Source: Borreliella chilensis | GTDB lineage: Bacteria; Spirochaetota; Spirochaetia; Borreliales; Borreliaceae | Direction: 5' to 3' | DNA length: 64,000 nt | Assembly: GCA_000808095.1 (NCBI GenBank) | Contig: CP009910.1 | Location: 372,001 to 436,000 of the forward strand | Shown here: piece after piece, positions 16,779 through 48,644 of the stretch | Layout: every line of letters begins with the position of its first letter | Position numbering within the stretch: position 1 is the stretch's first letter | Position numbers and translations under genes: made by a program | Notes under the pieces: model-generated | Told to the model about the DNA's origin: nothing | The model's database searches: none | Seen by the model: the letters and a program-made list of their open reading frames with translations, nothing else

Positions 16779-18203
16779 TCAAAGCTTATCTAACAACATA
16801 GAACATCTTCCTGAAGGAATAGGAAGGGTTTTTTCTTTTTTATTTAATATATTTATTGTAAAATAATAAAGTTTCTCAGATTCCATTTTTATTTCCCAAC
16901 CTCTTTTCCCTTTATTGCAAATTATTGTAGTTTGATTCTTTTTAAGAGATAAGCTTTCTATTCCCATAATCTCAAGAGTGGGTATATTCCAGTATACAGT
17001 TTTATCAGGCAAACTAATTGTAAGTCCAATAATATTTTCTATCATCAAACTAATGCTAAAAAGTGCAAGATAACAAATAAGATCTCTTTCTGTATAAGTT
17101 TTTTTATTAGAATCAAAATATGCAGGTCCTTCTTGCATAGGCTTATAAGCTTCCCAAATGTGGCCTTTAATTTTATTAAAAGGCATTAAAGTATCTAATA
17201 TATAATATAAATGCCTTATAGTAAATTCTCTTGCAATATTTGCACGACCACAATATTCAAGACCTTTGATTACAAAAAAATTCATGTAAGTGTAAACTGA
17301 ACCATAATACCCATTACCACATTCACTAAACCCCGGCTCACTCACAGAAAGCGTTGGAAAAGGATTTGGAGTACCAAAATGCTTATTACTTTTTAAGTAA
17401 AAAAGCATTCTCTCTATTCTGTCTTCACTGGGAATCTCAGAAAGCATTGGGAAAAAACCCACTATTGTCTTAATTTCAAGAATATTTTCATTAACATCAA
17501 GATCATAATAAAATCCATCTTTTTCACTCCACATTAAAGAATTAATTTTAGCCTTAAGAGAAAAAAATCGTTTTTTATATTCAAGCGACAAATTTTTATC
17601 ATTTAGAATGTCTGCTAATTTAGAAATACAATATGCACTATGAACTTGTAATGAATTAAAATCTACAGGATAGTATGCATCTACTCTTGGAGAGTTTTTA
17701 TAAAAAATTTTATTTACATCAATTGAATAAAGACCATTTCCCTTTAAAAATTTGCTCTCTATCCATTTATAATACTTATCAAGAATTGGCAAAACTTCAG
17801 AAATTCTCTTTTTATTCCCTGTTTTATGATATAAATTATATTCAGCCCACGCAAAAATAGGAAATCCAATATTCTCTTCATTCTCATCAAGATCAATAAT
17901 AGTATTTTGATTGTCGTACCTAGCCCTGATTGCACCAGATTCTTCCTGCAATTGATAAAATTTATCAATTGCAGATGTAGATGAATATTCCCCATTGCTA
18001 TAAACAAGAAAAAAGCTTGACATACAAGCTTGCATCTGATCTATATAATTACAATTTTCTGAATAATAATTTTTATCTTTTTTACTTTTATCAGAAACTT
18101 TTTGAAAAATAATCTTATCTTGAATCCAAGACAAACTTTTGTTATAAATATCAATAAAGTCTTGATCATAATAGTAAATTTTGGGAAACATTTTTTTATT
18201 CAA
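16779..18203 (-). CDS. treA: (alpha/alpha)6-barrel glycosidase, annotated as trehalase in relatives
   Basis: A 474-residue protein with the repeated helical pattern of GH37/GH63/GH15-like (alpha/alpha)6 barrels, for example AYCISKLADIL, MWSEKDGFYYD, GYYGSVYTYMNFFVIKGL and GHIWEAYKP. Borrelia orthologs are called trehalase, but I do not see the two classical GH37 signatures (PGGRFxExYxWDxY and QWDxPxxWxP), so the substrate is uncertain. There is no signal peptide. The start is a TTG with GAGGA eight bases upstream; the ATG 12 bases later has no ribosome site. Confidence 0.75.
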   Translation of the reverse strand: MNKKMFPKIYYYDQDFIDIYNKSLSWIQDKIIFQKVSDKSKKDKNYYSENCNYIDQMQACMSSFFLVYSNGEYSSTSAIDKFYQLQEESGAIRARYDNQNTIIDLDENEENIGFPIFAWAEYNLYHKTGNKKRISEVLPILDKYYKWIESKFLKGNGLYSIDVNKIFYKNSPRVDAYYPVDFNSLQVHSAYCISKLADILNDKNLSLEYKKRFFSLKAKINSLMWSEKDGFYYDLDVNENILEIKTIVGFFPMLSEIPSEDRIERMLFYLKSNKHFGTPNPFPTLSVSEPGFSECGNGYYGSVYTYMNFFVIKGLEYCGRANIAREFTIRHLYYILDTLMPFNKIKGHIWEAYKPMQEGPAYFDSNKKTYTERDLICYLALFSISLMIENIIGLTISLPDKTVYWNIPTLEIMGIESLSLKKNQTTIICNKGKRGWEIKMESEKLYYFTINILNKKEKTLPIPSGRCSMLLDKL

Positions 18204-19384: not shown

Positions 19385-19410
19385 TGTATTTTTAAATATT
19401 TAAAAATACA
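19385..19410. repeat. 26-bp perfect palindrome between bmpA and bmpB
   Basis: The half-site TGTATTTTTAAAT is followed directly by its exact reverse complement. It sits in the 89-base gap, just upstream of the bmpB ribosome site and 22 bases after the bmpA stop. It may be an RNA hairpin that reduces read-through or stabilises the bmpA mRNA end, or an operator. It has no GC-rich core and no clean U-run, so it is not a standard terminator. Confidence 0.6.
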
Positions 19411-44824: not shown

Positions 44825-44853
44825 AATTAAGCTTACATAAAGCAAGCTTAATT
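44825..44853. terminator. Hairpin terminator between convergent genes
   Basis: A 10-bp perfect stem (AATTAAGCTT / AAGCTTAATT) with a 9-base loop lies between the BB0406-like gene and convergent manA, overlapping the manA stop. It is AT-rich and lacks a long U-run, so it is probably weak. Confidence 0.55.
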
Positions 44854-45969
44854 GCAATCAAAACCAGCAATAAAAGCTTGACCATCCCCATTGACAAGCA
44901 AATTTTCAGCTTTTTTGCCTATAAAAACACTCTCACCTCTCTTAAGATCTAAGGATTTATTTATATTTACACAGCCATCTAAAACTAACAATATCATTGC
45001 ACTATTTCTCCTGATACAAATGCTCTCATTTATTTTTTTTTGAATTAATTTCAAATTAGTATTTGGAAGTCTAAATACACTAAAACCATTTTGAAAATCA
45101 GGATTTAAAAATGAAAATTTCCCCTCCTCGAATTGACCAACTCTCAACATCTCCTCTTTATCAATATACTTAGTAGTAAGACCAGCCCTAATAACATTGT
45201 CAGAATTAGTCATAAGTTCAATACAGTCCCCTCTAAGATATGCATGAACCTCTTGACTATTTGTATAAACAACTTCTCCTGATTTTAGCTTTAAGATATT
45301 CATGCCCAAAAATACTAAAAGGCCAACATCTATACCATAAATATTGTAAATTTCATTAAACCAATAGCTTCTAAGATTATCAATAAGCTCCAAATTTTTT
45401 AAAATTTTTACAATAATCTCCTCAAGTTCATGCCTTTGAAAGGCAAAAATAGTCTTTACAAAGTCTTTGTGTGATTTAAAGTCGAAATTTAATTTCAAAA
45501 TATCACAAATTTTTCTAATCTCCTCCAAAGGCAAAAAGCCCTTAAGAGCATAAAAATCACTCAAGGCATAAACAAGTTCAATTTTGGGGTTTTTATCTTT
45601 ATATATCCTTTTAGGATCATTAATATCTACCCCATTATTATTTTCTGATTCGTACCCTTTCAAAGCAATGTCTTTAGAAGGATGTATTTGAATAGACAAA
45701 GGCTTATTTGCAGACAACACCTTAAATAAAAAAGGAAATTCAGCATCACATCCTAAAAGCTCTTTATGAGCTTCCAAAAAATCACTTAAAAGCACATATT
45801 TATCCTCATATAAAATCTTACTAGAGAATGTCTTGTGCGCTCCAAGCCACATTTCAGCCTTAGGTTTCCCATCAATCTTATCACCTAAAAGGTGAGGAAT
45901 AAAACTAATCCCTCCCCAATCATATTCTTTAATATCATTTTTCATTAAAAAAATATTATCTTTATTCAT
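44848..45969 (-). CDS. manA: Mannose-6-phosphate isomerase
   Basis: A 373-residue type I phosphomannose isomerase interconverting mannose 6-phosphate and fructose 6-phosphate. Zinc-site motifs are visible: FPFLFKVLSANKPLSIQIHPS, DKNPKIELVYALSDF (family form NHKPEM varies here) and GEVVYTNSQEVHAYLRGDCIELMTNSDNVIRAGLT. The ATG overlaps the fruA stop codon (ATGA), so mannose or fructose entering through the PTS would be fed to glycolysis. Confidence 0.94.
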   Translation of the reverse strand: MNKDNIFLMKNDIKEYDWGGISFIPHLLGDKIDGKPKAEMWLGAHKTFSSKILYEDKYVLLSDFLEAHKELLGCDAEFPFLFKVLSANKPLSIQIHPSKDIALKGYESENNNGVDINDPKRIYKDKNPKIELVYALSDFYALKGFLPLEEIRKICDILKLNFDFKSHKDFVKTIFAFQRHELEEIIVKILKNLELIDNLRSYWFNEIYNIYGIDVGLLVFLGMNILKLKSGEVVYTNSQEVHAYLRGDCIELMTNSDNVIRAGLTTKYIDKEEMLRVGQFEEGKFSFLNPDFQNGFSVFRLPNTNLKLIQKKINESICIRRNSAMILLVLDGCVNINKSLDLKRGESVFIGKKAENLLVNGDGQAFIAGFDCN

Positions 45970-47846
45970 TCAGATTCCTTTAATTTTAAAGATTTCAAAA
46001 AAATTACCAAAGCTGTTGCAACTGCAACTCCAACAACAATTGCAATAATAAACTCAAATTTATTATCAACAACAGGAAGCACTATTGGTCCTCCATGGGG
46101 AGCATGATTAGCAACACCTAAAAAAGCTGCAATAATGCTTGATACAGCTCCTCCTACCACTACCGAAGGAATTACTCTTCCAGGATCACTAGCAGCAAAA
46201 GGTATAGCTCCCTCACTAATACCAATAAATGAAATTAAAAAGGCTATTTTGCCCGATTCTTTCTCTTCATTCTCAAACAACTTAGGTGCCAAAAAAGTAG
46301 CAAGACCCATAGCCATAGGGGGAACAGGAATTGCTGCTGCCACCATTCCCATTATTTCTGGTACTTGAGGGATTAGTCCTACACCAAAAAGAAATGCTAC
46401 CTTATTAAAAGGCCCCCCCATATCAATAGTTATCATTGAGCCTAGTACTAAGCCTAAGAAAATTTTACCCAACACACCAAACGTTTCTGAATTACTCTGT
46501 AGGGATTTAAGTCCACTCTCAAGTACCCCCATAAATTCTCCAATATAAACACCAACATATAACATAAAAAAGCCAACAATAATAGTGCTTATTAGTGGAA
46601 TTACAAATATAGGCATTACAGGCCTTAACCACTCAGGAACAGATCTCTTTGCCAAAAACTTTGCGACATAACCTGCAAGAAACCCCGCAAATATTGCACC
46701 CAAAAAACCTGCTTTTACATTCCCAGATATTACTCCACCAACAAGACCGGGAGCAAGACCAGGTTTATCAGCAATTGCCATCGAAATAAAACCAGCAAGT
46801 ACGGGCAGCATCATTCCAAAGGCAACAGAACCAATGTCTGCAATTTGTTTATAAAACGGATGATCAGAAAAATTAGGACCATCAGGCCCAATCCCAACAA
46901 AAGCAATACTAAGAGCAATTAAAATTCCCCCACTTGCAACAACAGGGATCATTGGAGATACTCCACTCATTAAATATTTATAAAAACTGGCTTTGCCTGT
47001 TGCAGTAGAACTTTTAGAGCTACTACTAACACTAGAATCTTGATTGCAAAAAAATACTGGAGCATTAAATGCCTCTTTAATAATATTTTCTGTATTGTTT
47101 ATCGCCTTTACAGTTGAAACCTTATAAACCCTTTTCCCCTCAAATCTCTTTTCATCAACATCCTTATCAACAGCAAGTATTACAATAGCCGCATTCCTAA
47201 TTTCTTCTTCTGTTAAGGCATTTTCAATACCAATAGACCCTTGAGTTTCGACCTTAATGTCGTAACCTTGCTTTTTAGCCTCACCCTCAATTTTCTTTGC
47301 TGCAATGTATGTATGAGCAACTCCAACAGGACAAGCAGTTACGGCCACTATTTTTTCTGACTTTGTAGCTCCAAAAATCTCTTCTTTAGAATTTCTTTCA
47401 ACATTTTCTATATAATAATAAATGTCATCAGCAGTAACAATCCCATTTAAAGCATTTTGAAAAGCATCATCTTCAAAAAGTTTAGCTATAAACGCAATCG
47501 ACTTGAGATGATCATTGCCTTGCTGCTTTTTTGACATACAAATTAAAAATATTAAATTAACAGGAGGATTTTCTTCAGACCACTTAACTCCAGCTCCTTT
47601 TATGTAAAGCAATGAAATAAAACTGGTCTTAACAACATCTCCTATAAAATGAGGAATTGCAACTCCATTTTCCCAAGAAGTGTCGCCTAGTTTCTCTCTA
47701 TCAAGAATTCCTTTAAGAAACTCACTTTTACTGTCTATATACCCCTTACCATTGACTTTTTCAACTAAAAAATCAATTACATCTTCTTTTGAATTTACTT
47801 CGGGCAAAATAAATACAAGATCTTTTTTCAAAAAATTAAAAAACAT
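45966..47846 (-). CDS. fruA: Fructose-family PTS transporter, EIIABC fusion
   Basis: A 626-residue phosphotransferase permease with domains in order EIIA-EIIB-EIIC. EIIA (1-150) has its phosphorylated His66 in AIPHF. EIIB (about 163-265) has Cys172 in VTACPVGVAHTYIAAKKIE. EIIC (about 288-626) has many transmembrane helices, with signatures APGLVGGVISG, DMGGPFNK and SEGAIPFAASDP. Both phospho-residues are intact, so it should be active. Paired with manA, mannose is a likely substrate besides fructose. Two palindromes lie upstream, suggesting regulation. Confidence 0.95.
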   Translation of the reverse strand: MFFNFLKKDLVFILPEVNSKEDVIDFLVEKVNGKGYIDSKSEFLKGILDREKLGDTSWENGVAIPHFIGDVVKTSFISLLYIKGAGVKWSEENPPVNLIFLICMSKKQQGNDHLKSIAFIAKLFEDDAFQNALNGIVTADDIYYYIENVERNSKEEIFGATKSEKIVAVTACPVGVAHTYIAAKKIEGEAKKQGYDIKVETQGSIGIENALTEEEIRNAAIVILAVDKDVDEKRFEGKRVYKVSTVKAINNTENIIKEAFNAPVFFCNQDSSVSSSSKSSTATGKASFYKYLMSGVSPMIPVVASGGILIALSIAFVGIGPDGPNFSDHPFYKQIADIGSVAFGMMLPVLAGFISMAIADKPGLAPGLVGGVISGNVKAGFLGAIFAGFLAGYVAKFLAKRSVPEWLRPVMPIFVIPLISTIIVGFFMLYVGVYIGEFMGVLESGLKSLQSNSETFGVLGKIFLGLVLGSMITIDMGGPFNKVAFLFGVGLIPQVPEIMGMVAAAIPVPPMAMGLATFLAPKLFENEEKESGKIAFLISFIGISEGAIPFAASDPGRVIPSVVVGGAVSSIIAAFLGVANHAPHGGPIVLPVVDNKFEFIIAIVVGVAVATALVIFLKSLKLKESE

Positions 47847-47873
47847 AAATGCAGTCTCCTAGCAATTAAACAT

Positions 47874-47890
47874 ATTGTATAATATACAAT
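47874..47890. promoter_or_regulatory. 17-bp dyad 27 bases upstream of fruA
   Basis: ATTGTATA-A-TATACAAT, centred about 35 bases before the fruA ATG and overlapping the expected -10/transcript start region. It is a candidate operator; AT-rich dyads arise by chance, but this one is long and well placed. Confidence 0.5.
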
Positions 47891-47911
47891 AAAATAGCAT
47901 AATCCAGCCAC

Positions 47912-47937
47912 TTAGTATAAAAATATTTTTATACTAA
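47912..47937. promoter_or_regulatory. 26-bp perfect palindrome between fruA and the divergent gene
   Basis: The half-site TTAGTATAAAAAT is followed directly by its exact reverse complement, with no loop. It lies in the 171-base gap between divergent genes. TATAAT at 47965-47970 is a likely -10 for the gene on the plus strand, so the palindrome lies just upstream of its -35 region and upstream of fruA on the other side. Confidence 0.6.
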
Positions 47938-48017
47938 AAATCAAAATTCAACTTGAATACATATTATAATTATTGAAAAGACAAAACTATTTTTATATTA
48001 TTTTAAATAATCTGCTT

Positions 48018-48644
48018 ATGAAAAAAACTCCAAATATTTATATTTCCTTAGCTTTGCTAGCCATTTATACTTTAAATGCACTTGCAAACGAAGAAGATAA
48101 TACTAATAAAAAAAACAATCAATCCGAACAAAGGTCCAATTTCTTTAGCTCAGAAAGAGGTTTCACCTACTCAACAGGAATTGGAACTGGAATTGGATTT
48201 TTCCTAAATTCAAATACCAAACATCTTATTTTTAGACCTTACTATACATTCTCTAGTAATAATTTTGATTTTCTAATCATTGCTATGATACTAATAAAGG
48301 AAAATCTTAATAATATTTCTAAAAAAATGCAATACTTTACATCTTACATTGGAGGAGGAATAAACTGGCACATTGCAAACCTAATTAAAAAAACAAAATA
48401 TTTTTCCTCTACCATTGGCATAGGTAGTCGTTTTTACTTATCTACAAACCTTATAGGAGACATTCAATTTTATGAAAAGTTGCCTTATATACTAGAGCCT
48501 TATATATTTATTGAACTTTCTACAAAAAAGTTAATCCCTTTAATGGGATTAGACTTTAAAATTGATTTCTTATTTTTAGATACATTTAACATTTCTTTTA
48601 ACTTTACTATTAGATATAATTTTAAGGTCGAAAAAGAGAAATAA
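48018..48644 (+). CDS. Exported protein, possible outer-membrane beta protein
   Basis: A 208-residue protein with a clear signal peptide from the ATG (MKKTPNIYISLALLAIYTLNALA). Its mature part is beta-rich with strands such as FTYSTGIGTGIGFFLNSN, FRPYYTFSSNNFDFLIIA and NISFNFTIRYNFKV, ending in an aromatic residue pattern reminiscent of small barrels. A TTG 45 bases earlier keeps frame, but it lies at the predicted transcript start and lacks a ribosome site. It is two bases before the nuclease gene. Confidence 0.7.
   Translation: MKKTPNIYISLALLAIYTLNALANEEDNTNKKNNQSEQRSNFFSSERGFTYSTGIGTGIGFFLNSNTKHLIFRPYYTFSSNNFDFLIIAMILIKENLNNISKKMQYFTSYIGGGINWHIANLIKKTKYFSSTIGIGSRFYLSTNLIGDIQFYEKLPYILEPYIFIELSTKKLIPLMGLDFKIDFLFLDTFNISFNFTIRYNFKVEKEK

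Follow-up and report, generated by a model that had tools for sequence, protein, structure and literature searches.

The 171-bp intergenic region between fruA-1 and a divergently transcribed gene on the chromosome of Borreliella chilensis VA1 contains a 19-bp dyad that is nearly invariant within the genus, overlaps the best-supported predicted −10 box of fruA-1, occurs as a single copy and is absent from relapsing-fever Borrelia. This dyad is strongly conserved and is a candidate operator for a sugar-uptake operon. We lean, by a modest degree, towards reading it as the operator of a dimeric repressor, with BadR as the likeliest protein, which would block RNA polymerase at the fruA-1 promoter, and towards reading the longer palindrome nearby as an UP-type element. 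Transcription factors are very few in Borrelia, and the near-invariant 19 bp on the predicted fruA-1 promoter offer a precise target for testing direct control by BadR or another factor. The features of this region are listed in Table 1, in which coordinates refer to the window, i.e. the whole stretch of 64,000 nt that was analysed.

Table 1. Genes, predicted promoters and inverted repeats at the fruA-1 locus of B. chilensis VA1 (window coordinates)
Feature	Position	Strand	Evidence or description
manA (BB0407 homologue), mannose-6-phosphate isomerase	44848..45969	minus	PMI_typeI_cat, E=3e-24
fruA-1 (BB0408 homologue), PTS EIIABC-type transporter	45966..47846	minus	PTS_EIIA_2, E=3.5e-35; PTS_IIB, E=1.5e-19 (Pfam)
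fruA leader with ribosome-binding site AGGAG	47847..47872	minus	sequence and alignment
19-bp dyad TATTGTATAATATACAATA (fruA sense TATTGTATATTATACAATA), candidate repressor operator	47873..47891	.	9-nt arms, 1-base centre; conservation
Predicted fruA promoter	47879..47907	minus	−35 CTGGAT (47907-47902), 17-nt spacer, −10 TATTAT (47884-47879)
26-bp perfect palindrome TTAGTATAAAAATATTTTTATACTAA	47912..47937	.	13-nt arms, no loop, 100% complementary
Divergent-gene promoter-like site TTGAAA, 17 nt, TATTAT	47973..48001	plus	10/12 matches; count of such sites at shuffle level
Divergent gene (BB0409 homologue), predicted exported protein	48018..48644	plus	signal-like N-terminus

The fruA stop codon overlaps the start of manA, which is the next gene on the minus strand. 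The initial annotation had described the 171 bases as separating fruA from a divergent exported-protein gene, and this is correct, given the EIIA and EIIB domains found with Pfam on one side and the signal-like N-terminus on the other. The product of the divergent gene matched no Pfam family, and a search for an intrinsic terminator found none. A transposon mutant of fruA-1 showed low infectivity for mice in a screen (PMC3485029).

The dyad is built of two 9-nt arms flanking a single base (TATTGTATA-A-TATACAATA). It had been annotated as a 17-bp element at 47874-47890; the element exists, but its true length is 19 bp (47873-47891). The 26-bp perfect palindrome at 47912-47937 is present exactly as annotated. 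When the 171-bp region was shuffled 5,000 times with dinucleotide composition preserved, an arm of at least 13 nt arose in 2 shuffles and an arm of at least 9 nt in 89, and the two never arose jointly; the locus thus carries inverted repeats beyond chance, as expected of a repressor operator. In the B. chilensis genome, the palindrome has no second site at up to 3 mismatches, and every other site resembling the dyad has at least 3 mismatches. Both are therefore single-copy, which rules out that either is a member of a dispersed repeat or regulon. A 25-mer from the region upstream of fruA was sought across a bacterial collection and matched exactly only in nine Borreliella records.

The two repeats differ in their conservation. 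fruA-1 was located in all 18 Borreliella genomes and in 17 of the 18 genomes of relapsing-fever Borrelia, the sister genus, and the upstream regions were aligned. The dyad (TATTGTATATTATACAATA in the fruA sense) is identical in 17 of the 18 Borreliella species and carries a single substitution in B. lanei. Among the 16 Borreliella species without a deletion of the palindrome, 19 of 19 dyad columns are invariant and the pairwise difference is 0.000, compared with 0.22 at the fourfold sites of fruA-1 (of which 28% are invariant), 0.27 in the spacer at 47938-47969, 0.132 in the linker, and 0.127 in the leader. The longest invariant run upstream of fruA-1 includes the dyad, spanning 25 columns and ending at 47870. 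In the two species that have lost the palindrome, the dyad is retained, intact in B. californiensis and with its one change in B. lanei. Both dyad arms are thus under purifying selection, as a repressor operator would be. Among the 17 relapsing-fever species aligned, neither the dyad nor the palindrome was found, and most retain a TAnAAT hexamer, without the dyad, at the corresponding place.

Promoters were scored with our own weight matrices, built from general knowledge. The predicted fruA promoter is among the top scorers in most Borreliella species, with a weak −35 box; since scores are only modest and some species have higher-scoring sites, its placement counts as a prediction, as does that of the start site. 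The dyad covers the predicted −10 box and part of the promoter spacer, and the −10/spacer region is a classic location of repressor operators. In B. lanei and B. californiensis, a different −35-like hexamer, TTCAAT, comes to lie 17 nt from TATATT as a result of the deletion, so a promoter is still readable in these species. The seven dyad bases that fall in the fruA promoter spacer show a pairwise difference of 0.000, whereas the difference is 0.093 in the part of the same spacer outside the dyad and 0.151 across the spacer of the divergent promoter. The invariance of the dyad is hard to account for by promoter function alone in light of these values, and this contrast in the sequence alignments is the main argument for more than polymerase binding.

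The conserved block might nonetheless be a mere core promoter of fruA-1, in which several −10-like hexamers (TATATT, TATTAT, and TACAAT) overlap within the dyad and the symmetry is incidental, with no repressor involved. The occurrence of TAnAAT without the dyad at the same place in most relapsing-fever species is consistent with this explanation, but the spacer bases vary no more than the −10 box, unlike those of the divergent promoter, and no base of either arm is changed in 17 of 18 species; we regard it as an unlikely account of the block. It is very unlikely that the dyad is transcribed and folds into a small hairpin close to the ribosome-binding site of the fruA-1 leader. A transcript starting just 3' of the fruA-side arm of the palindrome (−10 TATACT/TATATT) would place the dyad in the leader, and the stem is present in the predicted fold of the 171 nt, which is stabler than that of shuffled sequences (z −2.28, plus strand folded). 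However, the stem is weak, consisting of A-U pairs and a single G-C pair, the dyad hardly varies and compensatory changes are consequently absent, the sole substitution (in B. lanei) breaks a pair, and the dyad is kept in the two species that have lost the upstream arm.

The 26-bp palindrome has fared differently. Among the 18 Borreliella species, it is perfect in three (L001, L004, and L010), imperfect in 13, and deleted in two (B. lanei and B. californiensis; L005 and L016), and its centre lengthens from 0 to 2 or 3 bases between species, so that neither arms nor spacing are consistently kept. Ten of the 13 columns of the fruA-side arm are invariant (pairwise difference, 0.053), compared with six of 13 in the distal arm (0.139); the better preservation of the fruA-side arm is more in keeping with an element on the promoter side than with a symmetric site. 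Judged from its sequence, the palindrome is most likely an AT-rich upstream (UP-type) promoter element whose symmetry is largely incidental, and would be an accessory site at most. The palindrome resembles the UP elements and A/T tracts found 5' of bacterial promoters in its A5-6/T5-6 core immediately 5' of the predicted −35 box; UP elements do not require symmetry, whereas in three species the palindrome is perfectly symmetric. It is mostly a lineage feature, and it illustrates that a long perfect palindrome in a single genome may mislead; here the short repeat is the conserved one. The window contains three perfect palindromes with arms of at least 13 nt, compared with a mean of 0.05 in whole-window shuffles. 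A second 26-bp perfect palindrome (TGTATTTTTAAATATTTAAAAATACA) is located at 19385-19410, with similar lipoprotein-like genes of the minus strand on either side, and a 29-bp perfect palindrome with a one-base centre lies at 17946-17974, within the ORF at 16779-18203.

These data bear on the proposal in the initial annotation that the two repeats are operators near both promoters, read by a regulator common to sugar uptake and envelope. The dyad hardly varies among close relatives and is placed as a fruA operator would be, which upholds one half of the operator claim; the palindrome largely fails the same comparison. The placement near both promoters is only partly right: the predicted fruA promoter is overlapped by the dyad and has the palindrome just upstream of it, but the divergent promoter-like site, five of whose six −35 columns are invariant, starts 36 bp past the palindrome, on the side away from the dyad. 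That both repeats lie in a divergent intergenic region and both exceed chance would agree with a single regulator serving fruA and the divergent gene, but their sequences differ, and the palindrome is missing from two species and eroded in others, its centre having changed in length. The notion of a matched operator pair is accordingly unsupported. The main text and tables of the badR/csrA RNA-seq paper (PMC6117026) make no mention of BB_0409, and with the dyad lying off the divergent promoter, control of sugar uptake and envelope by one regulator at this locus is likewise without support; we consider such a shared operator highly improbable. Between its predicted promoter and the ATG at 48018, the divergent gene has only a very short leader with no clear ribosome-binding site, and the layout of promoter and start (47973-48018) seems similar in Borreliella and relapsing-fever Borrelia.

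If the dyad is an operator of fruA-1, a dimeric repressor bound to it would block RNA polymerase at the promoter; binding of repressor and polymerase would be mutually exclusive, since the dyad takes in the −10 box together with part of the spacer. In the presence of a sugar signal, the repressor would be released and the fruA-manA operon transcribed. ROK-family repressors such as XylR, NagC, and Mlc act at palindromic operators in sugar-gene promoters. The dyad is likewise palindromic and on a sugar-gene promoter, but is shorter than those operators. The genome encodes two ROK proteins. In BadR, the ROK domain begins at residue 90, leaving space for a DNA-binding domain, whereas in the second protein (307 aa) it begins at residue 4, which leaves no room for one; from its sequence, the latter looks like a sugar kinase. 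BadR, alone among the ROK proteins of this genome in having an N-terminal extension fit for a DNA-binding domain, would be the likeliest repressor. A GntR or DeoR repressor was ruled out as the reader of the dyad, because searches for these two families found neither in the genome.

BadR had been named as a candidate regulator in the initial annotation, and this was a reasonable choice: published RNA-seq values for a B. burgdorferi badR mutant include fruA-1 among the altered transcripts, up by log2 1.36 (2.5-fold; padj 1.8e-8; PMC6117026). In the csrA mutant of the same report, fruA-1 is up by log2 1.50 and manA by log2 1.18. Since fruA-1 rises as much in the csrA mutant, the badR effect may be indirect, and CsrA could instead act directly on the mRNA at the leader AGGAG, whose AGGA core could by inference be a putative CsrA site. 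The increase of both fruA-1 and manA in the csrA mutant is in line with direct action of CsrA, but such action leaves the invariance of the dyad unexplained, and there is dispute over further roles of CsrA in Borrelia (PMC12472547); we regard an indirect badR effect combined with direct control by CsrA as distinctly unlikely.

The fruA-1 region resembles BadR targets in having AT-rich repeats at a sugar-uptake promoter and in being derepressed in the badR mutant (PMC6117026), but differs from them in its motifs. The published BadR motif, TAAAATAT, given in the title of Ouyang and Zhou 2015 as cited in PMC6117026, does not occur exactly in the 171 bp. Copies with one mismatch number 7, compared with 3.0 expected from mononucleotide shuffles (p ~0.03), a weak excess in such AT-rich DNA. 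Scored with a weight matrix of the half-sites at chb, the strongest target of BadR, the dyad reaches 7.4 of 19.4 bits and ranks 23rd in the window, a weak likeness; the best match in the 171 bp falls outside the dyad and was equalled in 25 of 400 shuffles, and the matrix was rejected as a link to the dyad for lack of a significant match. Alignments of the glp, badR, bb0677, and chb promoters were likewise discarded as a source of a common BadR site, as each contains AT-rich repeats with no dyad shared among them. The ospC operator of B. burgdorferi, cited in PMC6117026, is likewise an inverted repeat beside a Borrelia promoter. BadR also occurs in relapsing-fever Borrelia, which are without the dyad. 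Taken together, BadR is the leading candidate for the reader of the dyad, though a tentative one. Alternatively, the dyad might serve a single gene as an operator that arose in the Lyme-group branch (or disappeared from relapsing-fever Borrelia), read by a protein that is not a recognised sugar repressor, forming a separate switch for mannose/fructose uptake, which we consider unlikely.

Three further observations were made outside the fruA-1 region of B. chilensis. In one relapsing-fever genome (G024, a single 0.9-Mb contig), fruA-1 had no match at E 1e-200, the manA match contains two stop codons, the short ROK protein is missing and BadR is retained, which probably represents the joint decay of one sugar pathway. 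Upstream of glpF (L096), a 36-bp inverted repeat (TCAATAATTTAAAAATTAAAATTTTTAAATTATTGA) overlaps the glp promoter TTGACA in B. chilensis and is partly retained elsewhere. In the chbC/chbA intergenic region on cp26 (L116:4911-5119), three half-sites of the type ATATATCTTATAA vary in concert across Borreliella species, i.e. TTATATTTTATATT / AATATAAAATATAA in B. chilensis and GATTTATT / AATAAATC in other species. This concerted change suggests that the promoter region on which badR has its strongest effect may contain an operator made up of these half-sites.
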